A program made the position numbers and the translations under genes. A stretch of DNA of 64,000 nt, taken from the NCBI GenBank assembly GCA_030609325.1, contig JAUWCL010000018.1, forward strand, positions 1 through 64,000. The letters run 5' to 3'. The notes beneath the pieces are model-generated. The model did no database searches. It had not been told where the DNA came from and saw only the letters and a program-made list of their open reading frames with translations. The DNA comes from Candidatus Krumholzibacteriota bacterium (GTDB lineage Bacteria; Krumholzibacteriota; Krumholzibacteriia; Krumholzibacteriales; Krumholzibacteriaceae). The first letter of the stretch is position 1. Every line of letters begins with the position of its first letter. Below are positions 6,001 through 20,203 of this stretch, in pieces.

Positions 6001-7221
6001 TGTACGACCGCGATGGATGTGGATGTTGTGGACAGGGCCGACCTCGACCTGCAGGCGGCGATCTCGAGGCCTCCCGAGGCGATCGGCGGAAACCTTTCGG
6101 TCAACCTGCCGTTCACCATACAGGCAAATGTAATCAATTCTGGCACAGCCGGTATCGACACGAGCGACGCGCGTCTGGAGATAGTTTTACCTGCCAGCGG
6201 GTCCTATACGCTGGATGGGTCCGGCGAGACGCTTCGCAAGCCGTTCTACCCGGGACAGCCAGTCACCTGGGACCTCAGGGCCTCGCTTCCCGACGATCAG
6301 GTGAGCTACATCTGGGTGAGATTCGCATCACCCGCCGCCACCGACGAGAACACGAACGAGGCTGTCGAGTACTTGACGAGCGAGGTCCCGATCGGCGTCA
6401 CGACCAAGGCGGGTACGATAACGATGCAGAACATCTCGCATCTCGAAACGATCCCGCCTGTAGTCGTCCCGAGAGGTGCTGCCGACGTACCGGTCATGAG
6501 GATCGTCTTAAGGAACAACTCCGAATACACGGCGGGCCTCGACACGATGTACGTAAGCGTGGAGGACAGCCGCGGAAACCTCAGGAGCGATCCCTCGAGA
6601 TACGTTTCTGCAGTCACGGTCAGCGCCGGAACGGATAGCTGGATGGAGCCGGTAGGCACGCAGAACCCGGTGCAGGTTATCGTCAGACACAGATTCACCC
6701 TCCTTGCCGGCGCTTCCGACACGGCCCTCGTCTCGATAGACGTATCGCAGGCCGCTCCCGACGGTGAGCTCAGGATCAACCTGGCCGAGAGCAGGGACGT
6801 TGTCTTCTCCATCGGCAGCGACGGCAGCCCGATAGCGGTCGTCCGCAACGCCAACGGCGAGGACATCGCCGGATTCTTCTACAACACACCGCTGTCGATC
6901 ATGAGCGCGAGTTTCGAGGAGTATGTACACAACTATCCCAACCCGTTCAGGGCGGGGAGCGAAGTCACGAAGATAGCCTATTTCCTCACGGAAGATTCTA
7001 GCGTGAGCATAAAGATATACGATTATATGGGAGCGCTCGTCTGGACGAAGGATATCCCGGCCGGCGGCCCCGGCGGCTCAGGAGAGCCGGAAGGCACGTG
7101 GTGGGAGGTGGACTGGGGCGGTCGCAACGGCAGGGGCGAGGTAGTGAGGAACGGAGTATACATCTGCAAGATAACGGCCGGCGGGAAATCAGCGATGTTC
7201 AAGATCGCGGTGGCCAAGTAG
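1..7221 (+). CDS. Giant repetitive cell-surface protein, CARDB-like repeats with FlgD-like C-terminal domain (5' partial)
   Basis: The frame is open from base 1, so the true start lies upstream; a GTG at 16 is probably internal. At least 2401 residues are visible. The N-terminal part resembles a bacterial Ig-like (invasin type) fold. From about base 1160 onward a linker motif (VQTPADL, IQDVAQL, IQDPADL, VQVPAAL and relatives) returns every 350-395 bases, marking about a dozen Ig/CARDB-like modules of roughly 117-131 residues with recurring GQ..W and VxNxG motifs. The last 90 residues carry a NYPNPF motif and end VRNGVYICKI, typical of the FlgD-like domain that acts as sorting tag or barrel anchor in FCB-group secreted proteins. 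Inference: a secreted stalk or adhesin. The following PorV-like gene starts 10 bases later, consistent with a type IX-like secretion pairing. No catalytic domain was seen. Confidence 0.85.
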   Translation, partial: TDPAGVTGTDGIATGTIASTVAETKVVRARIEGSQVTDTLFVDWVPGPPSGVISITSVDPDTITADGVSLSAITAGPVMDVYDNIVPERTRVTVVSSDGTIASDDFDPGLPGSQRETGVNGLVSVFVQSSTDTGSIDVEFRSVEGTAIGTAGLTFAPGPDVQYADSIYPVFVAPGSGERFSVRVTNSSLTWVDLDPSSTISFNDGLGNVFTAALGSVQRLEGVATDSLIFLETVVPSSFDPGTYSPRVSLTGIDRYGAEYETEFDAGINSVIVSSIEITGIQPRKTIVSRGDTAIVDVTVRNKGGAFVVMDDINLDFAMGSYTTLPDIDPPLPDTLHAGLDETYAFMVYVLPNCPLGVDTIDAWATAHVNGDDISDLSADDNYGIWTVQSAAHISDVPGSLTPSIVSVGQTHFFTVDLSNSGEAAVILDAADTRLSFTDGMETYSVALGAEGALTGMSVSDLVFPPAAVPGAMAPGAWPVTVELIGTENGGAFDTSFVLSDLVTVVDPAALTYISATLIPATVSKNSSVAFEIGIRNSGGADVILDQATTTFELDDGTITYTAYLDGACNILLAPGDNTVWFDAVTIPPGFLSGNYSPVLDLAGTENGLPFIAQPSVTDVVSVQDASQLAINSTAIVPSDLFTADQTGVRLAEIRVANNGGAEVRLDSLDVRFYIGGIEVTGEYVLTEAPIVAGIQVPGGTDTLVRMMFVDEAGLMTTGTVTVESTLWGTDLNSLNELEATTEYGGKGSFTVQTPADLVVERVIASVTEATTGQTRDWNVDVIVSNDGESDLEIDLGSAATYLTFSTSGDFTVIRPTELAGGGITLEGESSDTLRFTVDVTGTVAGDCHVNMFTEGMEINSTRVLGTVNAATADEAVVKIQDVAQLQVVSVTSLQDPVTIGQANEWSIDMTVTNGGGSDITLDLGNVDSTAVSVEGGTGFVFTRPVELFEGGVALPAGGSGTLRFVVSMTGTVPVGVTALSGSVVGTEDNSGTRVHHSITGPVGVNSVVFEEHPVPAYAAASLTPTVASSGTDIDIQFGIFSADSDHSTLILDRERTQAWFGDADGDTFRTNLSAVSGVTLEGGLATTLIFNSAAVSEDLERTGYTVGIHLEGTENGNPFSADITSAPDILTIEEAPQLSIIAIEIPQSVTSSLQPPWDVRMVLHNTGEASVRFTLDPDSTGVSLSIAGVGDRTFEYTVEPPTGLEGAGGLVLAGNQIDTLVFNVTGTGATTGTALVNGAVTAVDINSSEILTDDTYTGGGSYMAVQDPSLPVVLEAVASQDSVTSGQSSPWRVTLLVRNDGEAAMTLQPGSMLVYADYVLTVPSPPAAFTEGGTALAAGEAGHLEFEITPTPVIPAGYDLRIDAITGFIEDNRGKYLEYNTGVEGSGYGGVRVQAPADISIVSLTGNAPRQPFVNRNQDFPLAVEITNSGEAAAEFVTAGLAGDGSSSILNTPLIAGTLAGGETVVDTFRVTAADAAGNEEFTASIISVVDINSGQPDLVTVSPGADTTETMTIQDPADLAVTAVLTSQSEVNAGQTSDWTVRVDLVNNGGAPATIDVPDPADIEFLSSGSPLGGYLIVPPSAFASGDAGWMLDGEAADALIYTVSTTGTDTGMVNIDASVSWIDDNNPGAAASTSGGSSSIYVKEPSGLRITLVTSNAPNNTLLPNTSIVNENQPFHVTVTVENTGGDDLRDVDVSLTSNGPASITEIASSPDLPSGTVGYFVYQVSSAAAGVEILTAAIEEAYSVNTGEPVLPIQAVESVENVQVQVPAALVTSTYVLSPVGALDDTVSTGQQFEFAANVDNTGEADIDAFGQITLSLPAGFTRIYPDTDSLTMSFAAGEEIVWTLLAPAVPLASPQPVTVSITRTPSDINIGSAAFVQKDADTVSIVTEEAAVIAGCALVVSSPEGAGDRVFSTYQDFVVSLTAVPSANSQSNTATISLPADFTTTGGETRQLGAGDGTEKTVVWTVTAPDVNITAAAIQVSTAGTDVNSGVSFSGCTTAMDVDVVDRADLDLQAAISRPPEAIGGNLSVNLPFTIQANVINSGTAGIDTSDARLEIVLPASGSYTLDGSGETLRKPFYPGQPVTWDLRASLPDDQVSYIWVRFASPAATDENTNEAVEYLTSEVPIGVTTKAGTITMQNISHLETIPPVVVPRGAADVPVMRIVLRNNSEYTAGLDTMYVSVEDSRGNLRSDPSRYVSAVTVSAGTDSWMEPVGTQNPVQVIVRHRFTLLAGASDTALVSIDVSQAAPDGELRINLAESRDVVFSIGSDGSPIAVVRNANGEDIAGFFYNTPLSIMSASFEEYVHNYPNPFRAGSEVTKIAYFLTEDSSVSIKIYDYMGALVWTKDIPAGGPGGSGEPEGTWWEVDWGGRNGRGEVVRNGVYICKITAGGKSAMFKIAVAK

Positions 7222-7231
7222 GTGGGAACGG

Positions 7232-9121
7232 ATGAAGAGAGTATTTGAAATAACGCTGATCATCGCTCTCGGACTCTGTCCGCTCGGCGCCGCCGCGCAG
7301 GACGGGGGTGGGGGAACGAGGTCGGTTTTTACTCTCGGCGTCGGGTCCCGGGCCATCGCCATGGGCGGGGCCTTCACCGCTGTGGCCGATGACGCCTCGG
7401 CCGTTTTCTACAATCCAGCGGCGATGAAGATCAATGGGGCTCCCACGCTGATGGCGAACCACATCTCGCTCTTCCCCGGATTCACCGATGCTAGCTACGA
7501 CTATCTCGGGCTCGTCTGGCCGACCCTCGGGGCAGGATCGTTCGGAGCCGGAATGCTCACGACGGGAATGGGTGGTATCAGGGGCTTCGATGAGTTCAGC
7601 AGGCCGACCGGGGAACTCTCGTACAGAGAAAGCCTGGGGATCGTCTCGTACGCGTTCGACGTGCCGTGGCGCTTCGCCGGCACATGGTCCGTGGGGACCT
7701 CGATAAAGGTCCTTCACCAGAGGATCGGGGATTACGCCGATACGGGCACCGGCCTCGACCTCGGATTGCTGTACCGCATCAAATATATAGACGGGCTCTC
7801 TTTCGGTATGAACCTCCAGGATATAGTGGGGGCGAAGACGAAGCTCGTCTCGGCCAGTGACGAGGTATACAGAACAATGATGTTCGGTCTCGGGTACAGA
7901 AGGGCGCTCGGGGAGAGCTCGAGACTGACCCTGTCGGTCCAGATGGACATGCCGGAGAAGGCGGACAGCGACCTGAGGTTCGGCGCGGAGTACACGATCC
8001 GTGACATGATCAGCATCAGGATGGGATACGATTCCGAATCGTTCACCGCCGGCATCGGATTCGCGTGGCACGGATACTCCTTCGACTACGGATACTTCAG
8101 CAGGGAAGAGGCAGGGAGCTCTCATCCGATCACGATCACCGTCAGGCTCGGGGAACCGCTCGAGCGGAAGATCGCAGAGAGGGATAAGATACGCAGGGCC
8201 GAGGAGGAGAGAAGGCTCGCCGAACTCTTCGCCGTTCGAGTTGCCTCGCACATCGACGCTGCCGACAGTCTGAAGGGAGCGGGTGAGCTGGAGAGCGCCC
8301 TAGACGAGGTAAAGATCGCCCTCGAATACGATCCGGGCAGCGAACGGGCTGCGATCCTCCGCGACGAGATCGGCGCAGCAATCCTCGCCGCTCTTGAGGA
8401 GCGGACGAGGAACGCCGGGAAGGCGCTCCTTATCAACCAGCATTTCAGCCTCGGATTGAGGCACTACAGCGATAACGAGTATATTCTCGCCAGGGCCGAA
8501 TGGCGCAACGTTCTGGAGATCGATCCGGAGAACGAGCAGGCGCTCGATTATCTGCGCAGGACCGAGGAGAAGCTGAAAGAGCGGCTCCAGTCCCACCTCA
8601 CTGCGGCGGCGGAACATGAAAGAGCCGGCAGGCTACCCGAAGCGCTCGGTGAGTGGAACGTTGTCAGGATGATCGATCCCGAGAACGCAAAGGCTCTGGC
8701 GGCCATTGAACGGATCAAGTGCCGCATGGACAGCATGAGCAGGGGTTACAGGGAGGCCAGCCGCAGGCTCGAGATGATCGACCTCTTCGAGAAGGCAGTG
8801 ACGGCGTTCGGCGAGGGAAAGTATGAGAACGCGATCTCCCTCGCTCGCCAGGTTTTCCGGCTCGACCCGGCCCACGAGGAGGCGAAGGACCTGATCAACA
8901 GGGCGAAGCGAAGGATGAAGCCTCTCAGCGACGACGAGAAGGAACAGATAAGGACTTTCTATATAGAGGGCATGAAACACTTCACGCAGAAGGAATATGT
9001 GAAGGCGATAGATGTCTGGTGGAAGATCCTTGAGATCGATCCTGACAACGAGAGCGTAAGAAAGAACATCGAAGAGGCGAAGCAGCGGCTCAGGAAACTC
9101 GAGTCTCCCGAAGGTGGATAG
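7232..9121 (+). CDS. PorV/UPF0164-like outer-membrane barrel fused to periplasmic TPRs
   Basis: 629 residues. A signal peptide (about residues 1-23, ending GAAAQ) is followed by SRAIAMGGAF and DDASAVFYNPAAM, the hallmark start of the PorV/PorQ/UPF0164 family of barrels. The barrel covers about residues 25-305. A charged helical linker then leads to TPR-like helices (about 330-625) with repeated EYDPGS, EIDPEN, RLDPAH and EIDPDN turns. PorV-family proteins in Bacteroidetes accept the C-terminal domain of type IX substrates, so standing just after a giant protein with such a domain suggests partnership (inference). The TPR half would face the periplasm and could contact the sensor domain of the next gene product. 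The stop codon directly abuts the next start, which implies translational coupling. Confidence 0.82.
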   Translation: MKRVFEITLIIALGLCPLGAAAQDGGGGTRSVFTLGVGSRAIAMGGAFTAVADDASAVFYNPAAMKINGAPTLMANHISLFPGFTDASYDYLGLVWPTLGAGSFGAGMLTTGMGGIRGFDEFSRPTGELSYRESLGIVSYAFDVPWRFAGTWSVGTSIKVLHQRIGDYADTGTGLDLGLLYRIKYIDGLSFGMNLQDIVGAKTKLVSASDEVYRTMMFGLGYRRALGESSRLTLSVQMDMPEKADSDLRFGAEYTIRDMISIRMGYDSESFTAGIGFAWHGYSFDYGYFSREEAGSSHPITITVRLGEPLERKIAERDKIRRAEEERRLAELFAVRVASHIDAADSLKGAGELESALDEVKIALEYDPGSERAAILRDEIGAAILAALEERTRNAGKALLINQHFSLGLRHYSDNEYILARAEWRNVLEIDPENEQALDYLRRTEEKLKERLQSHLTAAAEHERAGRLPEALGEWNVVRMIDPENAKALAAIERIKCRMDSMSRGYREASRRLEMIDLFEKAVTAFGEGKYENAISLARQVFRLDPAHEEAKDLINRAKRRMKPLSDDEKEQIRTFYIEGMKHFTQKEYVKAIDVWWKILEIDPDNESVRKNIEEAKQRLRKLESPEGG

Positions 9122-12100
9122 GTGAAGAGAGAACTCCTGAGGGACAGAGAAACATTTCACCTGGAGATCCCGGCCGACGAGAACAATCTCAGCGAGGTCA
9201 GGGATTTCATCGCAGACGTATGCCTCAAGGCCGGTTTCTCCAAGCGCGAGACGAATAACACGAAGCTCGCGATGGACGAGGCCTGTACCAACATCATCAA
9301 GCATGCCTACCGCGACAAGGTCGGGACGATACGCATCGACGTGCAGGCGGAGCCAGGCAAGGTCGAGATCAACATCTTCGACAGGGGTAAACCCTTTGAC
9401 TGGTCCGGGGTGAAGGCCCCCGACCTGCAGAAATACGTCGAGATCGGTAAAAAGGGCGGGCTCGGGGTCTACCTGATGAACAGGCTGATGGACGACCTGG
9501 ATTACCAGACGTCCGAGAGCGGCAACCGGCTCTACATGGTCAAGGTGGCCGGCTCCGGGGGCGCCGAGCCGCTCTTTTTCTCGATCAAACCGAAATGGAC
9601 ATCGACCCTCAGATTCAAGTTCGCCTTCAGAGCGACCCTCGGGCTCCTTGGTCTGGTCTTCTTCCTCTGGGCCATCCAGTTCATCAACCAGTCTAAGGAT
9701 GTTGCCGCGAGGACCCGTGAGGCATGGTTGTCTATGAACAGCTTTGCCCGCACGGTGGAGGCTAAGAGCGAACCGGCGATGATCAGGGACGACCTGTACG
9801 ATCCAGAGTACAGGGAGCTTACCGATTTTGTGATGGAACGCGTCGTGAAGCACCCCGCGGTCATCTATACGAGGATCGTTAACAACGACGGGACGATAGT
9901 TTCCTCGAGCGACATCGAGGAGTTCATGAATGGTTATCAAATACCCGGGGGTGCGGAGACGCTCGATGCCGAGGGGACGTGGATCACCGTGGAGGGACCG
10001 AAAGGCGACAGGATAAGGGAGCTGCACTTCCCGATATATATCACGCGGGATGACGCCGAAAATGCGGCTTCGCTCGGACGCGTTGTCGTCGGTGTCTCCG
10101 AAAACGTGATAATGAACGGCATCGACGATCCCAGGACAAAGACTACCCTTATCCTCGTAGTGTTGATCGTTGTAGGACTCTCCCTCATATATCTGCTCGT
10201 CTCCGTCCTGGTGAAACCGATCCAGGCCCTGACTGACGGCGTGAGGGCTATAGGCGAAGGTGATTTCAGCGACGAATTGGAGATCGACGGTCCTGAAGAA
10301 ATAGGCGAGATCGCCAGGGCGTTCAACGAGATAACATTCAAGTTCCGTGAAGCCCAGAAGAGTGTAGTAGAACAGGAAAGAATGCAGAAGGAGATGCAGG
10401 TCGCCCAGGAGATCCAGCACTCCCTGCTTCCCGGCAAAGTCCCCGCGGTCAGCGGGTATGACATTGCGAGCCTCTATCGCGCCGCGAAGGAAGTCGGCGG
10501 AGACTATTACGATTTCGTAAGTGTCGACGAGGATACCCTCGGCGTCGTCGTGGCCGACGTTTCCGGAAAGGGCGTTCCCGGATCTCTTGTCATGACGATG
10601 ATCCGTACCGCCCTGCGTATGGAGGCGAGGGGAAGCCACTCGGCCGCAGATGTGATGTCGCGGATGAACGATTTCGTCACCGAGGACATGAAGAAGGGGA
10701 TGTTCGTCACGATCTTCTATCTGATCCTCGATTCGAAGAACAGGGTAATCAGCTACGCCAGTGCAGGCCACAACCCGATGGTCCTCTTCAGGGCCGAGAC
10801 GGACGAGACGTTTTTTCTCAACCCGCGCGGATTCCCCGTGGGCATCAGCCTCCCCGACGAGAGCCTCTTCAGGCGCTCGATCGATGTAGAGAAGATCAAG
10901 CTGAAGAAGGACGACATGCTCGTCATCTACACCGACGGCGTTACCGAGGCGATGAACGCAACGCGCGAACAGTATGGCGAGGACCGCCTCCTTGCCCTGA
11001 TAAAGAAATATGGCAGGAAGTCACCCGATGAGTTCGTGGATGCCCTCAACGAAGATATCAAGGTTTTCACCAGCGGGTTTCCGCAGAACGACGACATCAC
11101 CGTCGTGGCGATGAAGGAAAAGATGATGGCCGACGACGTGCTTTTCGGCATTCGCAAGAAGCTGCTCGATCTTGTGGAGGTAGAGGGCCTCAATGTGGCC
11201 GAGGCGTGTTCGAGCATGAAGGTGTCGCCGTCGACCTATTATAGGTACAAGAAGCGGATGGCCGAGATGGGAGAGCGCGGGCTGAAAAACAAGACCCTGC
11301 GCGAGGAGCACGAGATAAAGCGCGTCAACCTCGAGCAGAGGAAAAAGCTCCTCGAGATAATCAGGCGGCTTCCGAAGTTCGGCGCGAAGAGGATAGCGAC
11401 CGCCTTCAACGACGGCAAGGACGAGAGCGATACCCTGACACCCTCGCTTATATACGACGAGCTGAAGAGGATGCGTCTCAATACGTACGAGAAGAGGCTC
11501 GAATATCTAAGGCGGAACAGGTTCATCTCGGAGGAGCAGTTCCAGGCGATGCTTTCCGGAGATGAAACATCGCCGGCCGCACCGGCTGTCGGTGCCGGAA
11601 ATCTGGACGAAGTATCGGCAGAGGAATTGCCTGCCGCGGATGAGTTCGCCGGGGAGGCAGCCACCTCTGATACGGATCTGTCCGAGTATCAGCCCATGAC
11701 CGTTTCAAGGTATGAAGACAGCGAGGCGGAGGACGATGTCGAGAGGCTGCTTGCTTCCGTTCTCGGCAATGGCACAGGCGAAGGCGGCCTTGTGGAGGTG
11801 CTGACGCAGGATGAGGAGAGAGGGATCATCGTCATCAGGGTCGCCGGCCACCTCGATTCGAGCTCGGCCGGAGAGCTCGAGATCTTCCTCGAGAGCGTCC
11901 ACGAATACGGATTCTCGAAGATAGTCATTGACCTGGCAGGCGTGCCGTACATCAGCAGTGGCGGATGGGGCATATTCACCGGACGTGTGAAGATGCTCAG
12001 GGAGAAAGAGGGAGACGTAGTGCTTGCAGGCATGTCCCCCGAGGTATTCGATATCTACGAGCTGCTTGGTTTCCAGGACATCATCATGAATTTCCGCAAC

Positions 12101-13393
12101 GTCGACGAGGCGGTCGACTTCATCACTCTTCCGTTCGAGGTCAGGCAGGAAAGGCTCGAGCTCGTATCGGGCGCCGCAACGGAAGGGAAACGCCTCGAGC
12201 AGAGGATCAGCGCCGTCTCGGAAGAGAAAGCGGTGAGAGAGGAACAGGAAGGAGCCGTTCCGTGGTCCCCGCTAAGGATCGAGGCGGGTACCGTAGGCGA
12301 GTCGGGCGAGATCACTATTCTCAGCCTCAACGGGGTCATAGATACGGTCAGTTGCATGAAACTCCGCGAGGTAATCGAGAATCTCGTTACGAAGGCCGTG
12401 ACGAAGTTCGTCGTGGACATGTCCATGGTCGAGTATGTCAGCAGCGCGGGATGGGGCGTCTTCGCGTCGAAGATCGACGAGGTCAGGCGTTCCGAGGGCG
12501 ACATTAAAATATTCGGGATGGATCCCGAGGTCGACAGCATCTTCAACATGCTTGGATTCGACGTGATCATGCGTTCGTTCAGCATCCTTTCCGAGGCGAT
12601 AGAGGATTTCGAACACGCGCCTGCGCTTGCCGGCTCGACCGCGGTGATCCCCTCGCTTGTGACAGTTTCCGATGATGATCCTTATGCGGAAGTTCCGTGC
12701 GAAAAGCCTCCGACGGATAACGGGCCGCCGGGCACCGACCTGAGGAAACTGAAATTCGAGGTGGCGGCCAGGCGGTCACCGGACGGTAGATCCATGGTAC
12801 TCGATATCTCCGGTGCGATAGACGCGGCTACATCCGCCGTATTCGAGGACAGGCTCGAGCTGGCCATCGAGGACGGGCCGAAGTTTCTCGTGATCGATCT
12901 CTCCGGCGTCATCTATATAAGCAGCAGCGGCTGGGGCGTCATTGTCAAGTACATGCAGAAGATCGGGGCCGCCGGCGGGAGGATGGCGCTGTCAGGGATG
13001 AACCAGCCGATATTCAAGATATTCAGGGACCTGGGATTCGAGACGCTGATACCGCACTTCATGAACAGCGGGGCGGCTCTGTCCGAGCTCGCCGCGCCGG
13101 TCGCGGAATCGCCGGTAGAAGAACCGGTCCAGAAAAAGGAACGCGAACCCGTCGTCGAAGATGCCGTGAAGGAGGAGTCTGCGCCGCCAGAGCTCGAGAA
13201 AGCCGGTGTCGAACAGATCAAGCCCGCGGCGAGAGAACACGTCGAGACCCTCGACGTCAAACTCGATCTATCGGAGACGACCGGCAAGTCTGAAGGGAAG
13301 GACGGCAGGATCCGCAAGCTGGGATGGGGAGAATACGGAAAGAAACTGTTAAAGCGAAACAGCAGGAGGGACGGGAGGAAGAAGAAGGAATGA
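9122..13393 (+). CDS. All-in-one partner-switching regulator: RsbW-type kinase, membrane sensor-HAMP, SpoIIE phosphatase, transposase-type HTH, three STAS domains
   Basis: 1423 residues, GTG start directly after the previous stop. Domains in order: GHKL ATPase of anti-sigma kinase type (about 10-145; MDEACTNIIKHAY at 51-63, DRGKPFD at 87-93, glycine-rich lid near 111-115); TM about 168-188; extracytoplasmic sensor about 190-338, single-Cache-like; TM about 341-363; HAMP about 364-415; short coiled coil; PP2C/SpoIIE phosphatase (about 425-665; GGDYYDF at 459-465, ADVSGKG at 478-484, TDG at 604-606, NDD at 656-658); two HTH units resembling IS3/IS481 transposase N-termini (about 671-800); STAS 1 (about 890-1000), STAS 2 (1052-1162), STAS 3 (1208-1318); basic tail. 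Family knowledge: the kinase phosphorylates a STAS serine, the phosphatase removes it, and the STAS state controls a target. Having all three plus HTH in one membrane protein is unusual. Target and direction of control are unknown. Confidence 0.9.
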   Translation: MKRELLRDRETFHLEIPADENNLSEVRDFIADVCLKAGFSKRETNNTKLAMDEACTNIIKHAYRDKVGTIRIDVQAEPGKVEINIFDRGKPFDWSGVKAPDLQKYVEIGKKGGLGVYLMNRLMDDLDYQTSESGNRLYMVKVAGSGGAEPLFFSIKPKWTSTLRFKFAFRATLGLLGLVFFLWAIQFINQSKDVAARTREAWLSMNSFARTVEAKSEPAMIRDDLYDPEYRELTDFVMERVVKHPAVIYTRIVNNDGTIVSSSDIEEFMNGYQIPGGAETLDAEGTWITVEGPKGDRIRELHFPIYITRDDAENAASLGRVVVGVSENVIMNGIDDPRTKTTLILVVLIVVGLSLIYLLVSVLVKPIQALTDGVRAIGEGDFSDELEIDGPEEIGEIARAFNEITFKFREAQKSVVEQERMQKEMQVAQEIQHSLLPGKVPAVSGYDIASLYRAAKEVGGDYYDFVSVDEDTLGVVVADVSGKGVPGSLVMTMIRTALRMEARGSHSAADVMSRMNDFVTEDMKKGMFVTIFYLILDSKNRVISYASAGHNPMVLFRAETDETFFLNPRGFPVGISLPDESLFRRSIDVEKIKLKKDDMLVIYTDGVTEAMNATREQYGEDRLLALIKKYGRKSPDEFVDALNEDIKVFTSGFPQNDDITVVAMKEKMMADDVLFGIRKKLLDLVEVEGLNVAEACSSMKVSPSTYYRYKKRMAEMGERGLKNKTLREEHEIKRVNLEQRKKLLEIIRRLPKFGAKRIATAFNDGKDESDTLTPSLIYDELKRMRLNTYEKRLEYLRRNRFISEEQFQAMLSGDETSPAAPAVGAGNLDEVSAEELPAADEFAGEAATSDTDLSEYQPMTVSRYEDSEAEDDVERLLASVLGNGTGEGGLVEVLTQDEERGIIVIRVAGHLDSSSAGELEIFLESVHEYGFSKIVIDLAGVPYISSGGWGIFTGRVKMLREKEGDVVLAGMSPEVFDIYELLGFQDIIMNFRNVDEAVDFITLPFEVRQERLELVSGAATEGKRLEQRISAVSEEKAVREEQEGAVPWSPLRIEAGTVGESGEITILSLNGVIDTVSCMKLREVIENLVTKAVTKFVVDMSMVEYVSSAGWGVFASKIDEVRRSEGDIKIFGMDPEVDSIFNMLGFDVIMRSFSILSEAIEDFEHAPALAGSTAVIPSLVTVSDDDPYAEVPCEKPPTDNGPPGTDLRKLKFEVAARRSPDGRSMVLDISGAIDAATSAVFEDRLELAIEDGPKFLVIDLSGVIYISSSGWGVIVKYMQKIGAAGGRMALSGMNQPIFKIFRDLGFETLIPHFMNSGAALSELAAPVAESPVEEPVQKKEREPVVEDAVKEESAPPELEKAGVEQIKPAAREHVETLDVKLDLSETTGKSEGKDGRIRKLGWGEYGKKLLKRNSRRDGRKKKE

Positions 13394-14136
13394 AGAGTTT
13401 CGCGATAATGACGATGAAGGGGGGTACGGGCAAGACAACGACGGCGGTCAGCCTCGCGCACGGCCTTACCCTTAGCGGGCGGAAGGTCCTTCTCGTCGAC
13501 TGCGATCCACAGCGAAATGTCGCCGTCACTTTCGGCGTCAAGGGAGAAAAGGGGCTCGACGGGCTGCTGATGACCGGCGACGTTGACATTATCCAGGTAA
13601 GGGAAAACTTCTTCATCATAGATTCCGGCGGGCGGAGGCTCGTAGAGGTCGAGCTACAGCTCGGCAGGCAGGAGAGACGGGAAGGAAGGCTCCGGGATGC
13701 CCTGAAGCACCTTAAAGGGTGCGACTATGTCATCTGCGACTGCCCCCCGTCGATGAACCTGATAAACATCAATGCGCTCGCCTACTGCGACGAGGTGATA
13801 GTCCCGGTGGGCATGGACTATCTCTCCGAGGTGGGGGCGCGCCAGACTATGGAGATCATCGAGGAGATCGGATGGATCACGCAAAAGAGCTCGATCGAAT
13901 ACAGGATACTGCCGACGTTCTTCGATTCCCGCACCAGAATATCCAGGATGGTGCTGGACGATCTGAGGGAGCATTTCGGCGAGAGGATGTTCAGCACGGT
14001 GATCAGGATAAATACGGCGATAAGGGAAGCTCCGGGCTCCAACAAGACGATATACGAGCACGCCCCCCTGTCGAGGGGAGCGTACGACTACTACAAGCTG
14101 ACCGAAGAGGTGCTCGCTCTCGAGAGAGAGGTCTGA
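13390..14136 (+). CDS. MinD/ParA-family ATPase (orphan)
   Basis: 248 residues. The ATG overlaps the previous stop (ATGA at 13390-13393), behind an AGGAAGAAGAAGGA purine tract. The deviant Walker A KGGTGKTT sits at residues 10-17 with the signature lysine, followed by LLVDCDPQRN (switch region) and CDCPPSM (Walker B-type). Length matches Soj/MinD-like proteins. No ParB, parS-like repeat or MinE follows, so plasmid-type partitioning is unlikely; orphan ParA/MinD proteins often place protein complexes at the pole or across the nucleoid. Inference: it positions the partner-switching protein or its STAS partners. Target specificity cannot be read from the sequence. Confidence 0.9.
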   Translation: MKSFAIMTMKGGTGKTTTAVSLAHGLTLSGRKVLLVDCDPQRNVAVTFGVKGEKGLDGLLMTGDVDIIQVRENFFIIDSGGRRLVEVELQLGRQERREGRLRDALKHLKGCDYVICDCPPSMNLININALAYCDEVIVPVGMDYLSEVGARQTMEIIEEIGWITQKSSIEYRILPTFFDSRTRISRMVLDDLREHFGERMFSTVIRINTAIREAPGSNKTIYEHAPLSRGAYDYYKLTEEVLALEREV

Positions 14137-14215
14137 AGCGCCCGCCGGAAGACCTGTTTTATTGTATTCCGCGGGGGAGATATGGTAGTATTCCATATTG
14201 TGGGAGGAGTTCCTT

Positions 14216-15334
14216 TTGGAAAGTTTCGAGTTGAGAGAAGAGATACGTCACGACGGGGCGAGCTATTTCCTGCAGACTAGCTACAACTCCGAGAACGAGC
14301 AGATACAGAGCTCGTTTTTCAGGGACGGGGCGGTCTTCGACACGGTGGTCAGAAAGGCCGGTGGGGATACGGAGCCCGAGGAGATCAGGGAACTCACGAA
14401 GGAGATCCATCAGCGGAACAAGCGGAGCTTCCGGTTCATCCTCGATGCGAGGGACAACATCGGCAGGTCAGACGATCCCAATCCGCATCTCAAGCTGGCC
14501 GATACCCTTCTGAGAAAGAACCTTTTCCGCGAGGCGATCGCCGAGGCCGAGATGGCGGTGGAAAAGGGAGCGAACGATTCGAGGGCCTGGATGGTAATCG
14601 GAGAGTCGCTTTACAGGATGGACGAGTTCGACATGGCGCTCGACGCTATCCGCAAAGGGCTCGAGCTCAGTCCTGACTATCCCGACCTGCATAACCTGAT
14701 AGGGAAGATATTCCTCAGGCAGAATATGTGCGGGATGGCGGTCGAGAGCTTCAAGAAGGCGATCGGACTGAACATATATTACGGTGAGCCGTATCTCAAC
14801 CTGATCCGGACCTACCTGACCAACACGATCATCAAGCAGGACTACGAGCTTTCCAGAGGGCTCGAGGAAAAGTTCTCATCAAACCTCAAAAAGGCCGGGC
14901 AGCTCAATCCCAACCTGAGGGACGGGATCCTCGACGATGTAAAGGCCCATTTCAAGAGGGAGGAGTACGAGGAGGCTCTGAAACTACTCGACGGGATCGG
15001 ATCGGTCAGCGCCCGCAGCCTGGTCGACGACATCATCCTTGAGCTCTACCTGATGCTCATCCAGAGCGGAGACGAGATCGAGGAGGGGGATATAGAAAAA
15101 TACCTCGAGAAGGTAGGTGAGATTCTGGACAGGAATCCCACCTTCGCAGACGCCTGGAACTCGCTTGGTATCCTTTATACTGCAAAATGCAAGATATTCA
15201 TGGACAAGGCGAGCGAGGCGTTCGAAAAGGCCCTCGAGATAAATCAGGATTACGAAAAAGCGAGGAAAAACCTGAGGCTTACGGAGAACGATCGACAGGG
15301 GATTTTTATCCTTTTGAAGGCATTATTGGACTGA
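14216..15334 (+). CDS. TPR-repeat scaffold protein of the partner-switching operon
   Basis: About 372 residues from a TTG at 14216, chosen because GGGAGGAG at 14202-14209 sits 6 bases upstream; an in-frame TTG at 14198 has no site. The N-terminal 90 residues form a separate small region (SYFLQTSYNS, FFRDGAVFDTVV). From about 95 on, helical TPR-type repeats are evident (ADTLLRKNLFREAI, IGESLYRMDEFDMAL, LIGKIFLRQNMCGMAV, LGILYTAKCKIFMDKASEAF). No signal peptide, so probably cytoplasmic. It lies between the ParA-like ATPase and two STAS proteins, which suggests a scaffold or adaptor, but that is inference from context only. Confidence 0.8.
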   Translation: MESFELREEIRHDGASYFLQTSYNSENEQIQSSFFRDGAVFDTVVRKAGGDTEPEEIRELTKEIHQRNKRSFRFILDARDNIGRSDDPNPHLKLADTLLRKNLFREAIAEAEMAVEKGANDSRAWMVIGESLYRMDEFDMALDAIRKGLELSPDYPDLHNLIGKIFLRQNMCGMAVESFKKAIGLNIYYGEPYLNLIRTYLTNTIIKQDYELSRGLEEKFSSNLKKAGQLNPNLRDGILDDVKAHFKREEYEEALKLLDGIGSVSARSLVDDIILELYLMLIQSGDEIEEGDIEKYLEKVGEILDRNPTFADAWNSLGILYTAKCKIFMDKASEAFEKALEINQDYEKARKNLRLTENDRQGIFILLKALLD

Positions 15335-15381
15335 AAGTTGCATTAAAAGACCCGAGGAAACCAGAACAGGACAGACAACGT

Positions 15382-15750
15382 ATGGACAAGTTGCTTATTA
15401 ATGAAGAAAAAGTCGAGGACGTCGTAGTCCTGAAGCTCCAGGGGCTGGTCGATTCCGGCACGGCCCAGCTGATGGAAGGGCGGCTCAACGATCTGATATC
15501 TGACGGTAACGTCAAGATCGTCGTGGACCTCGATCTCGTGGATTACATAAGTTCCGCCGGTTGGGGGATATTCGTCGGTGAGATCAAGGGCGTCAGACAG
15601 AGCAACGGTGATATCAAGCTCGCCTCGATGCGTCCCGATGTACGGGAGGTATTCGACCTGCTCGAGTTCAACACCCTGCTTACGCCGTATGATTCCCGGG
15701 GGGATGCTCTGGCAGCGTTCGAGGCGGAAAAAAGAAACGAATTTGCCTGA
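15382..15750 (+). CDS. STAS-domain anti-anti-sigma-type protein 1
   Basis: 122 residues from the ATG at 15382; an upstream in-frame extension overlaps the TPR gene and has no STAS character. One STAS domain fills the protein. The phospho-acceptor loop reads VDYISSAGWGIF, equivalent to the SpoIIAA loop but with serine where SpoIIAA has aspartate. The candidate target is the second serine (family knowledge). The loop is almost identical to those of the three STAS domains in the 1423-residue protein and of the next gene, so it is a likely substrate of the RsbW-type kinase and SpoIIE phosphatase encoded upstream. Confidence 0.88.
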   Translation: MDKLLINEEKVEDVVVLKLQGLVDSGTAQLMEGRLNDLISDGNVKIVVDLDLVDYISSAGWGIFVGEIKGVRQSNGDIKLASMRPDVREVFDLLEFNTLLTPYDSRGDALAAFEAEKRNEFA

Positions 15751-15777
15751 GCCCGGATGCAAAAGGGAGCGAAACCG

Positions 15778-16179
15778 ATGAACGACATCAATATTACCTT
15801 TTCGAAACCCGACGAGAATCCTGATATATCGGTCATATCAGTCAAGGGATATGTCGATACCACGACCTCGACCGAGCTCGAGGAGAGCCTCAAGCGCTTG
15901 TTGGGCGGGGGACGGTACGACATCGTCATCGATCTCGGCAACGTCAACTACATCAGCTCGGCCGGCTGGGGTATATTCATAAGCGAGATAAAGGAGATCA
16001 GGGAAAACGGCGGGGACCTTAAGCTTGCCGCCATGATCGGCGACGTCTACGAGGTCTTCGAACTTCTCGAATTCCAGACGATTCTCGAGAGCTTCGACAC
16101 TGTGGAGGAGGCCGTCGGCAGCTTCGGCGAGGTCTCGCCCGGCGGGAACGGAAACAAGGAAAGCGAGATCAAAGCCTGA
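15778..16179 (+). CDS. STAS-domain anti-anti-sigma-type protein 2
   Basis: 133 residues. The ATG at 15778 is preferred over the one at 15757 because GGGAG at 15765-15769 is 8 bases upstream of the former. One STAS domain with the loop VNYISSAGWGIF; about 20 C-terminal residues are polar and probably disordered. It is the last gene of the unit and a strong hairpin terminator follows within 30 bases. It probably arose by duplication of the preceding gene. With two free STAS proteins and three fused ones, the circuit has five candidate phospho-acceptor domains. Confidence 0.9.
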   Translation: MNDINITFSKPDENPDISVISVKGYVDTTTSTELEESLKRLLGGGRYDIVIDLGNVNYISSAGWGIFISEIKEIRENGGDLKLAAMIGDVYEVFELLEFQTILESFDTVEEAVGSFGEVSPGGNGNKESEIKA

Positions 16180-16208
16180 TCTCGGGCACACCGACAGGAA
16201 AATGAAGG

Positions 16209-16238
16209 GCCTCCGCCAGAGGGCGGAGGCTTTTTTTT
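16209..16238 (+). terminator. Rho-independent terminator of the partner-switching operon
   Basis: A 9-bp perfect stem, GCCTCCGCC (16209-16217) with GGCGGAGGC (16222-16230), closes a 4-base AGAG loop and is followed at once by eight T (16231-16238). It lies 29 bases after the second STAS gene and before the VWA gene, so it ends the long upstream unit. Confidence 0.95.
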
Positions 16239-16297: not shown

Positions 16298-18451
16298 TTG
16301 GAGTCATCAAGCTGGACGATCGTCATCGATCCCGATCCGTGGAGGATCGGGGCCGGCATATTGCTCGCGCTGTATGCGTGCTGGGCGTACAGGCGGACCC
16401 TGCCGCCCCTGTCCCTCTCCAGGCGGGCAGCCCTTGCCGCCCTGAGGATCGCCGGTTTTCTTTTGCTTGCCGTCTTCGCGCTGGATCCTTCAATCGTGGC
16501 AAGGAGCGAGTCGTCGAGATCGCCGGTAGTATCCGTCCTCGTCGACGTCTCCGGAAGCATGAGCATCAAAGACGGCGGGGCTGACCCGAGGATAGATGCT
16601 GCCGTTCGGGCGGCAGGCATGATAGCCGGATCCCTCGGCGAGGCGAGGGTCGAAATCCTGCCCTTCGCCGCCGGGCTCTGCGGCGCGGCGGTATCTCTGG
16701 ACAGCATCCCTCCGGCGGACGGAGAGGGAACGGATATCTACGGGGCGATCGAAGGGGCTGAGAGAAGATACGCTGGCGATAAACTCGCCGCGGTCGTGCT
16801 CGTCTCCGACGGCCGCATTACGAGGGGGATGTCGGGAAGGTACGTTCCCGGCCGAGTGCCGGTCTTCACGGTTGCGGTCGGAGACACTGTCGAGGGAGCG
16901 GACCTGTCGGTCGACAGGGTGGAGTACGAGAGGACCGTTTATACGGGGACAAGGGAGAGCGTCAGGGCAGTCATCAGGTACTCCTCGGTCGATGAGTGGG
17001 CGGCGGTCGTCGAGCTGGCTGATGGTGGAAGGGTCCTCGACAGGTTCAGGACAGGCATCCTCAGAGGCAGCGGCCTCGTCGAGGCAGATCTGAGATATGT
17101 TCCTTCCGAAGAAGGCACCCGCTCCATGGAGGTCCGTGTGGCGCCCCTGGACGGCGAGGTGACGGAAGGGAACAACAGGGAGATGTTCAGGATAAACGCC
17201 CTCAAGGACCGCGTCGAGATCCTGTTCTTCGACGGCAGCCCGGACTGGAACATGACATTCATTCGCAGGTTGTGCGAAGGTTCGAAAAGGCTGCACCTGG
17301 ATGCTGCGGTTCCCGCTCCGGGAGGGGGATACAGGATGCCCGGCGGGGGAAGGTGGGAGTTTCCCGGAGACGTGGACGGGCTCTCGAGGTATGACCTCGT
17401 TATAACGGGCGGAGGAGGGACGTTTCCATCCGCAAGGGAGGCGGAGACGCTGACCGAATACGTCGCCGCTGGCGGAGCGGTTCTCTTTATCGCATCGGAG
17501 AAATCCCCCGTGCTCTTTCCCCGCGCGCTGACGTTGCTCAGGCGGGCGCTGCCGGTCACGGCCGCCGGTGCTCCGCGTATCGCGGCCGGTGATTTCCTTG
17601 TGACTCCGGGGCCGGCCGTGGACGCGCCTTGGCTGCCCGACATGAGCGGCAGCGGAAGAGGGACGCTCCCTCCCCTGTCGGGAGTGGTCGAGGGGCTGTC
17701 CCCGACCGCAGGGGCACAGGTACCCCTTGTCCTGACGGGCAACGGGCCGGAGAGACCGTTTCTCGTCGTCGAGCCGAAAGAGAAGGGGATATCGGCGGTC
17801 CTTCTGGGCTTGCCGGTCTGGAGATGGAGGCTCGCAGGAGAAGAAGGGGCCGATGCGTACGATGGTCTCCTCGGAGGGTTGATACAGTACCTGGCCGAGG
17901 GACGCAAGGTGTCGGCTCTCGACGTCCAGACCGACAGGTCAGCATACAGAACGGGCGAGACGCCGAGGATCACCGTCTTTCCCTCCACCGGGCGCGCCGG
18001 CGAGGGCATCCGCGGCGAGATCATCGCGGCGGGAAGCGACGGCGTTCCCGTCGAAACCTTTATACCGGTGCCCGATCCGGATAGGCCCGGGGTCTACGGG
18101 GCCGTTCTCGGGAACCTTCCCCCGGGAGACTATACGGTCAGGGTAAAGGCGGGACCGGCTGACGGGGCCACGGTGGAGGGCAGTACGACGTTCGCCGTCG
18201 AATCTCTCTCAGTTGAAATGCTGCGCACATCGGGTGACGCCGGGTTACTCGGAAGGATCGCCGCAGACTCGGGCGGTAAGGTCGTCAGGCTGGAGGATGC
18301 AGGGGAGCTTGCCGGCATGATCGACCTCGAAGCTTATACCGTAGTATTGACGTCGGTCCGTAAGATGCGCGGCAAGGCCTGGTTCTTCGCCGCTATCGTC
18401 CTCGTATTCGCGGCTGAATGGCTGCTCCGCAAGATCCTGGGCCTCGTGTAG
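16298..18451 (+). CDS. Membrane-anchored VWA-domain protein with glutamine-amidotransferase-like region
   Basis: 717 residues from a TTG at 16298, with GGAGG about 5 bases upstream. Two N-terminal membrane segments (about 17-31 and 46-63) are followed by a VWA domain with an intact metal-site motif DVSGSM at 83-88, GEGTD further on, and VLVSDGR. The middle part (from VEILFFDGSPDWN) looks like the class I amidotransferase-like fold found in related FCB and planctomycete membrane proteins, with no evident catalytic cysteine. One C-terminal membrane helix (AWFFAAIVLVFAAEWLL) is followed by a short basic tail. The topology puts the large domains outside the cytoplasm. Relatives are usually annotated BatA-like or VWA membrane protein of unknown function. 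No MoxR ATPase or DUF58 partner is nearby, so the usual Bat cluster is not present here. Confidence 0.82.
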   Translation: MESSSWTIVIDPDPWRIGAGILLALYACWAYRRTLPPLSLSRRAALAALRIAGFLLLAVFALDPSIVARSESSRSPVVSVLVDVSGSMSIKDGGADPRIDAAVRAAGMIAGSLGEARVEILPFAAGLCGAAVSLDSIPPADGEGTDIYGAIEGAERRYAGDKLAAVVLVSDGRITRGMSGRYVPGRVPVFTVAVGDTVEGADLSVDRVEYERTVYTGTRESVRAVIRYSSVDEWAAVVELADGGRVLDRFRTGILRGSGLVEADLRYVPSEEGTRSMEVRVAPLDGEVTEGNNREMFRINALKDRVEILFFDGSPDWNMTFIRRLCEGSKRLHLDAAVPAPGGGYRMPGGGRWEFPGDVDGLSRYDLVITGGGGTFPSAREAETLTEYVAAGGAVLFIASEKSPVLFPRALTLLRRALPVTAAGAPRIAAGDFLVTPGPAVDAPWLPDMSGSGRGTLPPLSGVVEGLSPTAGAQVPLVLTGNGPERPFLVVEPKEKGISAVLLGLPVWRWRLAGEEGADAYDGLLGGLIQYLAEGRKVSALDVQTDRSAYRTGETPRITVFPSTGRAGEGIRGEIIAAGSDGVPVETFIPVPDPDRPGVYGAVLGNLPPGDYTVRVKAGPADGATVEGSTTFAVESLSVEMLRTSGDAGLLGRIAADSGGKVVRLEDAGELAGMIDLEAYTVVLTSVRKMRGKAWFFAAIVLVFAAEWLLRKILGLV

Positions 18452-18495
18452 GACTCTCCTCATATAATGCTTGATATTCGGTGCGCCCGGGGGTA

Positions 18496-18513
18496 AGCTT
18501 CCGACCGGAAGCT
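18496..18513 (+). other. Hairpin abutting the ribosome binding site of the LTD lipoprotein gene
   Basis: AGCTTCC (18496-18502) and GGAAGCT (18507-18513) form a 7-bp perfect stem with loop GACC. The very next bases are the ribosome binding site GGGGAGG (18514-18520). There is no T tract, so it is not an intrinsic terminator. It could affect mRNA stability or ribosome access. Confidence 0.5.
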
Positions 18514-18523
18514 GGGGAGGTGG

Positions 18524-20203
18524 ATGATGAAGACGTGGCGCTTCCTTCTTCCGGCCGTTCCTCCGACATTCATGATTCTATGTCTCGCGGGCTGCGTATC
18601 CGGCTCGGTCTCTTCGCCTGTCGTGATAAATGAGGTTTATTACGACCATCCGGGAAGTGACGCGGGATTCGAATTCGTCGAGCTCTATTGTCCCGGAGAG
18701 ATTCGCGTATCTCTGGAAGGATGGGCGATCGCGATGATCGACGGCAGGACGGGAAGGATGCGCGATCTATGGCGGGCTGAACCGGGAACGATCATCGAGA
18801 GCGGTGGCCTCGTCCTGATCGGGGGCGACAGCTGCGCCGTGTCGCCGGCCAACCTCCTGATCGGCTCGATCGAGAACGGGCCGGACGCGGTTGTTCTTCT
18901 GCGCGATGGTGAAGAGATCGACCTGGTCTGCTACGGAGGCGACGGTCCGGGCTGTTCTCCGGGCAGATCCCTCTCCCGTCGTCCGGACGGAACGGATTCC
19001 GGCGACACAGGCACGGACTTCGTCTGCGCTTCACCGACTCCCGGTCTGAGAAACTTCCATGACTGCGATCTGGCAGTCTCGTTCGCGGGGCCTCTCCACG
19101 TTTATTGCCCGTCCGAACGCGCCGATATCCCCATCCTTCTGGAGAATAAGGGCCTGGACGGATTCTCCGGGAGCGCCGTTCTGACCGTATCGAGCGAACA
19201 GACAGGTTCTCGGACGGTAGTCGGGAGCAGGCATCTGAATCCCGTGCTGAAGGCGGGAGAGGAGCTGGCGGTGCAGGTCGGTTGCCCGGGATTGCCTGCA
19301 GGGATCTCGAATCTCGAGATACGGATAGAGGCGGACGGCGACACGAATCGATCGAACGACAGCGGATCGGTCTTCGTGAGTTCCTCTCCGGGAGAGGTCG
19401 TTATCAGTGAGATCATGTACAGGCCGGTCGAGGGCGGCGAATGGATCGAGCTGTTCAACAGGTCTCCGGTAACGGTCGACCTGTCCGGATGGTCTGTTAC
19501 CGACCGGTCGGGCGCCTCGGGATCGATCAGAAGCGGTGTGGAGATCGAGGCTGGATGCTTCGTCGTCCTTGCGCAGGACCCTGACGCCGTAACCGCGATG
19601 TTCCCCGCCTGTGCGGGGATCGTCTCGGCGCTCGAGAGCAGGTGGCCCCGTCTCAATGACGGAGACGGGGACGGTATCGCCGAGGAGATATTCGTCCGGC
19701 TGCACGACGGGACCACGGTCGAGAGCGTCTCATATCGAGGTCTGATCGGAGAGGAGAAGGGACGCTCTATAGAGAGGCTGTCTCCGGAGCTCTGCAGCGC
19801 CGACATGGCAGGGATATGGCTCCGCTGCGGGGCGCCTGGCGGTGGTACTCCCGGTGAGCGGAACTACTGCCATACCGTCGGCATCCCGACGGCGGGTATG
19901 ACCGTCTCGCCCGATCCATTCTGTCCGGAGCTGAACGGCGTGGTGAAGTTCTCCGCGGCTGCCCGTAACGGTGAGGTCTCGTATGGAGCACGCATCTTCG
20001 ATATGGAAGGGAGGGAGATAGCGAGGCTCGCGTCGGGCCCGGTCGGAGCCCCGGCGGTTTCCTTCGACTGGGACGGTCGCGATTCGAGAGGAAGGCCGGC
20101 CGCTACCGGCCTGTATATCTGCGTGGTGGAATTCAACGGCGGCGGAGGTGGTTTATGCAGAAGGGAAAAACGTACAGTAGCGGTCTGGGCCGGACAGCGT
20201 TGA
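18524..20203 (+). CDS. Lamin-tail-domain (LTD) lipoprotein with FlgD-like C-terminus
   Basis: About 559 residues; a second in-frame ATG at 18527 has better spacing from GGGGAGG at 18514-18520. The signal sequence ends in LCLAGC, a lipobox. Two lamin-tail-type domains are visible: about 33-165 (VVINEVYYDHPG, FEFVELYCPG) and about 288-450 (VVISEIMYRP, GEWIELFNRS). The region between them is a beta-rich CARDB-like module. The final 85 residues (ARIFDMEGREIARLASG, DWDGRDSRGRPAATGLYICVV) match the FlgD-like Ig domain. Probably displayed on the cell surface or outer membrane. LTD domains occur in secreted nucleases and adhesins, but no catalytic domain was seen. Confidence 0.85.
   Translation: MMKTWRFLLPAVPPTFMILCLAGCVSGSVSSPVVINEVYYDHPGSDAGFEFVELYCPGEIRVSLEGWAIAMIDGRTGRMRDLWRAEPGTIIESGGLVLIGGDSCAVSPANLLIGSIENGPDAVVLLRDGEEIDLVCYGGDGPGCSPGRSLSRRPDGTDSGDTGTDFVCASPTPGLRNFHDCDLAVSFAGPLHVYCPSERADIPILLENKGLDGFSGSAVLTVSSEQTGSRTVVGSRHLNPVLKAGEELAVQVGCPGLPAGISNLEIRIEADGDTNRSNDSGSVFVSSSPGEVVISEIMYRPVEGGEWIELFNRSPVTVDLSGWSVTDRSGASGSIRSGVEIEAGCFVVLAQDPDAVTAMFPACAGIVSALESRWPRLNDGDGDGIAEEIFVRLHDGTTVESVSYRGLIGEEKGRSIERLSPELCSADMAGIWLRCGAPGGGTPGERNYCHTVGIPTAGMTVSPDPFCPELNGVVKFSAAARNGEVSYGARIFDMEGREIARLASGPVGAPAVSFDWDGRDSRGRPAATGLYICVVEFNGGGGGLCRREKRTVAVWAGQR

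Follow-up and report, generated by a model that had tools for sequence, protein, structure and literature searches.

This locus raises the question of what a bacterial protein that holds a kinase, a phosphatase and their putative substrate domains in one chain responds to, and which process it serves. The window, meaning the whole stretch of DNA analysed (64,000 nucleotides), opens a 64-kb contig from a MAG of 2.63 Mb that is 95% complete and whose relatives are Candidatus Krumholzibacteriota. The original prediction described a 1423-residue protein with kinase, sensor, HAMP, SpoIIE, helix-turn-helix (HTH) and three STAS domains, followed by ParA, TPR and two STAS genes, and connected it to a surface or secretion process. 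Profile searches confirm the protein and, with Pfam, the four genes downstream of it. The unit also includes two genes upstream, and its order is giant surface protein, PorV/TPR protein, hub, ParA, TPR, STAS, STAS:

16–7221, + strand: giant surface protein of at least 2406 aa, with CARDB/Ig-like repeats and a putative C-terminal T9SS type A sorting domain (TIGR04183)
7232–9121, + strand: PorV/PorQ-family outer-membrane barrel (residues 28–310) with C-terminal TPR (NF033709, TPR_2)
9122–13393, + strand: switch hub, 1423 aa (profile matches, alignment, hydropathy, structure model)
9167–9544, + strand: RsbW/SpoIIAB-type serine kinase domain of the hub (HATPase_c_2 1.1e-28, above cut-off)
9689–10141, + strand: putative periplasmic sensor of the hub, sCache/DcuS-like (weak sCache_3_2, DcuS profile match, model strands, hydropathy)
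10529–11116, + strand: SpoIIE/PP2C phosphatase domain of the hub (Pfam 2e-50; motifs GGDYYD, ADVSGKG, YTDG, NDD)
11135–11521, + strand: IS481-transposase-type HTH of the hub, lacking the transposase catalytic part (NF033577 9.1e-15)
11801–12118, + strand: STAS domain 1 of the hub, phosphoacceptor Ser946 by alignment
12290–12616, + strand: STAS domain 2 of the hub, phosphoacceptor Ser1108 by alignment
12785–13090, + strand: STAS domain 3 of the hub, phosphoacceptor Ser1268 by alignment
13390–14136, + strand: ParA/BcsQ-type ATPase (AAA_31 4.6e-35)
14216–15334, + strand: cytoplasmic TPR protein with an N-terminal four-strand domain (TPR_1 5.8e-17, conserved start)
15382–15750, + strand: free STAS protein a (STAS 3.3e-16)
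15778–16179, + strand: free STAS protein b (STAS 5.4e-19)
16204–16235, + strand: terminator-like hairpin of 14 pairs, 8 of them G-C, followed by a T run, TTTATTATCC

The hub begins with the kinase (HATPase_c_2, residues 16–141), a membrane helix, the sensor, a second membrane helix, HAMP (residues 359–403, 2.1e-10) and SpoIIE (residues 470–665), and the three STAS domains are matched by Pfam with 1.2e-55 taken together. Hydropathy places the membrane helices at about residues 167–189 and 341–364, on both sides of the sensor, and by this anatomy the kinase and phosphatase are predicted on the cytoplasmic side and the sensor on the periplasmic side. The sensor is divergent. Its sCache_3_2 match (residues 207–331) is weak and below the Pfam cut-off, its best match among solved structures is DcuS (3by8) with a value of 0.027, and the AlphaFold model contains the long helix and strands expected of sCache. 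Behind SpoIIE, Pfam gives weak HTH matches at residues 678–776, and the NCBIfam profile NF033577 assigns residues 678–791 to the N-terminal region of IS481 transposases. This match is confined to profile positions 2–112 of 284, which is the HTH front only; a complete IS481 transposase was rejected because the catalytic DDE domain is absent. Comparison of the HTH with solved structures returned weak matches only.

The AlphaFold model of hub residues 1–830 has a mean pLDDT of 78. Its best PDB matches in Foldseek include RsbU/RsbW of Rv1364c, which is the top match, SiaA PP2C and B. subtilis RsbW, and RsbW/SpoIIAB chains are also present among the matches. The two folds on which the original prediction depended, kinase and phosphatase, are thus both present in the model. 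A frame-fusion artefact is ruled out by full-length orthologues at 52–91% identity. Almost every genome of the window's family and order has a full-length hub, and the gene order of the prediction recurs with it, so the hub is not due to chance.

The residues needed for partner switching were followed in an alignment of 28 hub orthologues from three phyla. The N-box, G1 and G2 of the kinase are conserved in all orthologues that span the region, and the N-box reads DEACTNIIKH in most. The phosphatase motifs GGDYYDF, ADVSGKG, YTDG and NDDIT are retained in nearly all, and the exceptions are one or two shortened or masked rows and single conservative changes. Each of the three fused STAS domains has an SS-x-GWG motif, as do the translations of both free STAS proteins. 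The second serine of this motif aligns with Ser56 in solved RsbV, and in an alignment with RsbV and SpoIIAA the free STAS protein b has a serine at the RsbV acceptor site. In some relatives (loci L063 and L066) the third fused STAS domain lacks the motif. All catalytic motifs are kept, and all five STAS domains of the window keep the phosphoacceptor serine. The hub and STAS genes fit partner switching of the RsbUVW type, with a GHKL kinase, a PP2C phosphatase with metal-binding aspartates and the predicted STAS acceptor serine. The genes read at the locus include no recognised sigma factor or other target of the STAS proteins.

The genes are closely packed. The gap between the giant and PorV/TPR genes is 10 bases, and that between PorV/TPR and the hub is 0 bases. 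The listed ParA reading frame begins at 13324, its orthologues align from residue 23, and the start is very probably the ATG at 13390, which overlaps the hub stop codon by 4 bases. With the starts taken from relatives (for STAS a, residue 66 of the listed frame), the later gaps are roughly 79, 47 and 27 bases, so that a unit without gaps, as first described, holds for the ParA junction and not for the genes behind it. The hairpin at 16204–16235 is strong, and it is the predicted end of the transcription unit. The kinase, the phosphatase and five STAS domains, their motifs intact, thus probably lie on one transcript, as had been proposed. The VWA gene at 16298–18451 is syntenic yet beyond the hairpin, and it was rejected as a member. 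Together with a Lamin-tail/FlgD_ig protein (window 16298–20203), it keeps its position behind the operon in relatives despite the terminator. The cytoplasmic TPR protein is modelled with a pLDDT of 88; its fold search returned generic TPR matches only, with no match for the N-terminal domain.

The upstream genes point to type IX secretion. The giant gene is open at the contig end, its 5′ end lying outside the contig, and TIGR04183 matches residues 2307–2398 with 24.3 bits, narrowly above the cut-off of 23; the domain scores 32.6 bits with in-frame neighbours. Complete relatives of the giant have a hydrophobic leader, as judged by eye, in the part that the contig end removes from the window copy. 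The host genome encodes the SprA translocon (482 bits, a single frame of 2163 aa), about 37 sorting-domain proteins and six PorV-family proteins above cut-off. With a sorting domain narrowly above cut-off and SprA in the host, the giant is a predicted T9SS type A cargo. The window also encodes, at 35718–38261, another protein whose T9SS sorting domain scores 31 bits. The PorV/TPR protein matches NF033709 with 118.2 bits, where the cut-off is 90, and TPR_2 with 2.3e-14, and its family profile matches solved PorV (6h3i, 6e-15). A putative T9SS cargo and a PorV-family gene directly upstream of the hub thus bear out the proposed connection with a surface or secretion process.

The hub is found outside the phylum of the window as well. 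Two other phyla have its core of about 800 residues, from kinase to HTH: that of L048 (a Calditrichota MAG), in 75 of 82 genomes, and that of L050 (FCPU426), to which L052 also belongs, in 28 of 45. Contigs labelled 'Latescibacterota' were discarded as a separate phylum, as whole-genome comparison places their genomes in the window's own order. The IS481-type HTH is conserved in the hubs of all three phyla, and the fused STAS domains are absent from those of the L048 and FCPU426 phyla. Hubs of the L048 phylum have an acidic linker and TPR at the C-terminus, and one free STAS gene comes next. The FCPU426 phylum has STAS and TPR genes behind the hub, except in one subgroup. Among the loci read, ParA is confined to Krumholzibacteriota. 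It was rejected as a core part, since it is missing in the other two phyla while the rest of the unit stays, and ParA and the fused STAS domains are best described as local additions. Some free STAS proteins carry a C-terminal HTH_21/HTH_32-like segment that resembles the second half of the hub HTH (L132:7050–7709, with PF13276 in L132; L143, L145, L172, L173). In one genome the operon lies in two places: PorV/TPR and the N-terminal part of the hub in one, and the STAS part, ParA, TPR, STAS, STAS and VWA in the other (L074 and L075; L074 is partly N).

The closest partner of the hub is PorV/TPR, its neighbour in almost every readable locus of the three phyla. A PorV-family gene lies immediately upstream of 54 of the 58 hub-type reading frames in the loci read, and the remaining four are a truncated PorV found by BLAST (L064), a PorV in the same reading frame (L144) and two paralogues without HTH. 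The giant gene lies directly 5′ of PorV/TPR in most loci; for distant loci the sorting-domain profile was built from these giants and is not independent there. Eight loci of the FCPU426 phylum have no giant gene, and PorV/TPR and the hub are still adjacent in them, for which reason PorV/TPR is considered the closest partner. It lies outside the stretch covered by the original prediction (9122–16179). The circuit was there called self-contained, which is doubtful, since the most conserved partner was not included. Three variants of this arrangement were also observed. In L144:1–5361, PorV/TPR and hub form one unbroken reading frame of 1786 aa at a contig edge, which is either a fusion or a missing stop codon. 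The two hub paralogues without HTH, of about 1900 aa, have long TPR C-termini and another gene upstream (L150:1058–6778, L151:8203–14175). In the giant-less FCPU426 subgroup (L174–L181), RNase R precedes PorV/TPR and histidinol dehydrogenase follows the hub (L178); the RNase R identity comes from a single Pfam-scanned case, L178.

A search with the PorV/TPR family, which reached Krumholzibacteriota including families without the fused hub, gave loci with other outputs. These keep the order of giant cargo, PorV/TPR and sCache-HAMP membrane protein, and their PorV/TPR proteins, like those of another phylum, are also above the NF033709 cut-off. The 78 cases in which PorV/TPR and the sensor are neighbours consist of 53 hubs, 16 sensor-SpoIIE proteins, 8 HD-GYP proteins and 1 that is cut off. 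Kinase and/or STAS genes come next, as a rule, in the 16 sensor-SpoIIE cases: L184 has a lone SpoIIE output followed by a kinase-STAS protein, and L185 and L187 have SpoIIE with a C-terminal kinase domain, followed by STAS. A short RsbW-type kinase-STAS fusion behind sensor-SpoIIE makes up a second circuit layout (L184:11700–12806, L182:3585–4823, L190:6483–7598). The HD-GYP outputs (L195, L196 and others) have intact HD and HHExxDGxGYP motifs. Such a c-di-GMP phosphodiesterase after giant, PorV/TPR and sCache-HAMP was noted at L195:6254–7684, L196:10347–11795 and L198–L206.

The trees of PorV/TPR and of the sensor have the same main split, hub-type versus the rest, with support of 0.999 and 0.911, and in both the HD-GYP cases cluster with the SpoIIE-only cases. 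The PorV/TPR–sensor distance correlation of 0.64 partly reflects shared species history. The loci were selected through PorV/TPR and sensor proteins, and the hub-first and PorV-first selections agree. As both trees share the main split, the input parts stayed together and the output changed. Cargo, PorV/TPR and sensor thus form a conserved input to which different outputs are joined. That the inputs stay together while the output changes is the main argument for a sensor that serves the pair of PorV/TPR and cargo.

The domains, the intact catalytic and acceptor residues, the operon order, the linkage in three phyla and the output exchange, all as read from sequence, are consistent with the giant, PorV/TPR and hub as a trans-envelope relay, which is the probable role of this trio. 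That the operon reports the status of the surface protein or its shuttle to the partner switch is held with slightly better than even confidence. In this relay the giant would leave the cell through the type IX system, and the PorV-family barrel, with a TPR part predicted to face the periplasm, would hold or shuttle it. The sCache-like domain of the hub would sense, either directly or via a ligand, whether the giant and PorV/TPR are loaded or unloaded, or whether the displayed protein is under stress. We infer both this signal and its direction, from the surface inward. HAMP would relay the state to the SpoIIE phosphatase, and loading or stress would shift the balance of kinase and phosphatase, which together would set serine phosphorylation in the STAS domains, three of them tethered and two free. 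The free STAS proteins, when unphosphorylated, would then bind a cytoplasmic target. The likeliest output sites are the conserved cytoplasmic TPR protein, since hubs of the L048 phylum carry a fused TPR, and the hub HTH, since an HTH-like segment is found at the end of some free STAS proteins. The HTH may act on DNA, perhaps that of its own operon.

A classical regulator, in which the sensor binds a periplasmic small molecule, the switch sets the amount of surface protein and PorV/TPR is a carrier only, is unlikely, at about one chance in four. Small ligands are the usual binding partners of sCache/DcuS-like domains, the sensor here matches DcuS, and it is the least conserved part of the hub (18–46% identity in most pairs), a variability that is also compatible with small-ligand sensing. 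Co-regulation in operons is common, and genes in an operon can be regulated together although their products do not touch. However, no neighbour of the sensor is as constant as PorV/TPR, which stays next to it in loci that lack the giant or have another output enzyme, and simple co-regulation does not predict this.

A membrane-tethered transcription factor, with the IS481-type HTH as main output on its own promoter and STAS phosphorylation governing HTH access, has perhaps one chance in five. It agrees with the conservation of the HTH in the hubs of three phyla and with the HTH-like ends of some free STAS proteins. In contrast, the SpoIIE-only and HD-GYP variants have no HTH, the PDB relatives of the HTH are weak, and it could bind protein instead. 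Inside-out control with a logic like that of LapD and LapA is improbable. Here a cytoplasmic signal on the kinase, phosphatase or STAS domains would alter the periplasmic domain, and PorV/TPR would retain or release the surface protein. HAMP can signal in both directions, the giant cargo is adhesin-like, and the tethered STAS domains could act as a cytoplasmic gate on the hub. LapD operates with degenerate enzyme domains, whereas the PP2C, HD-GYP and kinase domains of these loci keep their catalytic residues, as expected of outputs and not of receptors. The placement of a self-contained switch in the cell by the ParA-like ATPase, as originally predicted, is very improbable: the ParA gene overlaps the hub gene and is retained throughout the window's family and in some other Krumholzibacteriota, but it is absent from the read loci of two phyla that keep hub, PorV/TPR, STAS and TPR, and no ParB-like gene was found among the annotated neighbours.

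Compared with known systems, the hub is a variant of partner switching. M. tuberculosis Rv1364c has a PAS sensor, PP2C phosphatase, kinase and STAS in a single polypeptide (PMC9138534). It fuses all four parts, contrary to the original statement that known systems split or fuse only some of them. Like the hub, it has sensor, PP2C, RsbW-type kinase and STAS in one chain; unlike the hub, its PAS sensor is soluble, it has one STAS, acts on sigma F, and lacks HTH, T9SS cargo and PorV linkage. The domain order also differs: sensor-PP2C-kinase-STAS in the soluble Rv1364c type, kinase-sensor-HAMP-PP2C-HTH-STAS in the transmembrane hub. Vibrio fischeri SypE has an N-terminal serine kinase and a C-terminal PP2C that act on the free STAS protein SypA in biofilm control (PMC3610818). 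It also combines kinase and phosphatase in one protein with a free STAS, and Syp controls a surface trait, but SypE has a central receiver domain in place of a transmembrane sensor and no fused STAS, HTH or secretion genes. As Rv1364c and SypE have such fusions, a kinase-phosphatase-STAS fusion as such is not new. SiaABC controls biofilm formation in Pseudomonas aeruginosa (PMC7647112). SiaA is a membrane sensor-HAMP-PP2C protein like the hub, which has a partial NF038263 match and the SiaA PP2C fold match, whereas in SiaABC the kinase and substrate are separate proteins and HTH, TPR and T9SS linkage are absent.

On the secretion side, Flavobacterium SprB-SprF and Fjoh_3952-Fjoh_3951 have a cargo gene immediately followed by an outer-membrane shuttle gene (PMC12618676), which is a precedent for the adjacency seen here. 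Those pairs have type B domains and PorP/SprF, in contrast to the type A-like domain, the PorV/PorQ barrel-TPR fusion and the sensor enzyme as third gene of the present loci. PorXY-SigP is a signalling pathway that regulates the T9SS in Porphyromonas gingivalis (PMC4800418). It likewise ties signalling to the T9SS, but it comprises a histidine kinase, a response regulator and an ECF sigma factor encoded apart, and no partner switch. A literature search with limited terms found no description of the giant, PorV/TPR and hub trio. As far as these searches show, the transmembrane hub with an IS481-type HTH, its constant linkage to T9SS cargo and PorV/TPR, and the exchange of outputs are new.

The findings suggest that these cells monitor or control surface display through the hub switch. 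In one phylum 75 of 82 genomes have the hub, which indicates a core function, and the swapping of output enzymes behind a single input shows which part is the receptor. Tentatively, at somewhat less than even odds, the loci would represent a hitherto undescribed class of trans-envelope receptors that read the cell's own surface layer or adhesin, with the displayed giant and PorV/TPR as outer half and sCache-HAMP as inner half. Their interchangeable outputs, proposed with the same reserve, would be a partner switch with HTH, a plain PP2C with separate kinase-STAS, and a c-di-GMP phosphodiesterase. If so, a signalling partner dedicated to type IX secretion would couple surface display to serine phosphorylation or c-di-GMP, in phyla for which metagenomes are almost the only source of knowledge.
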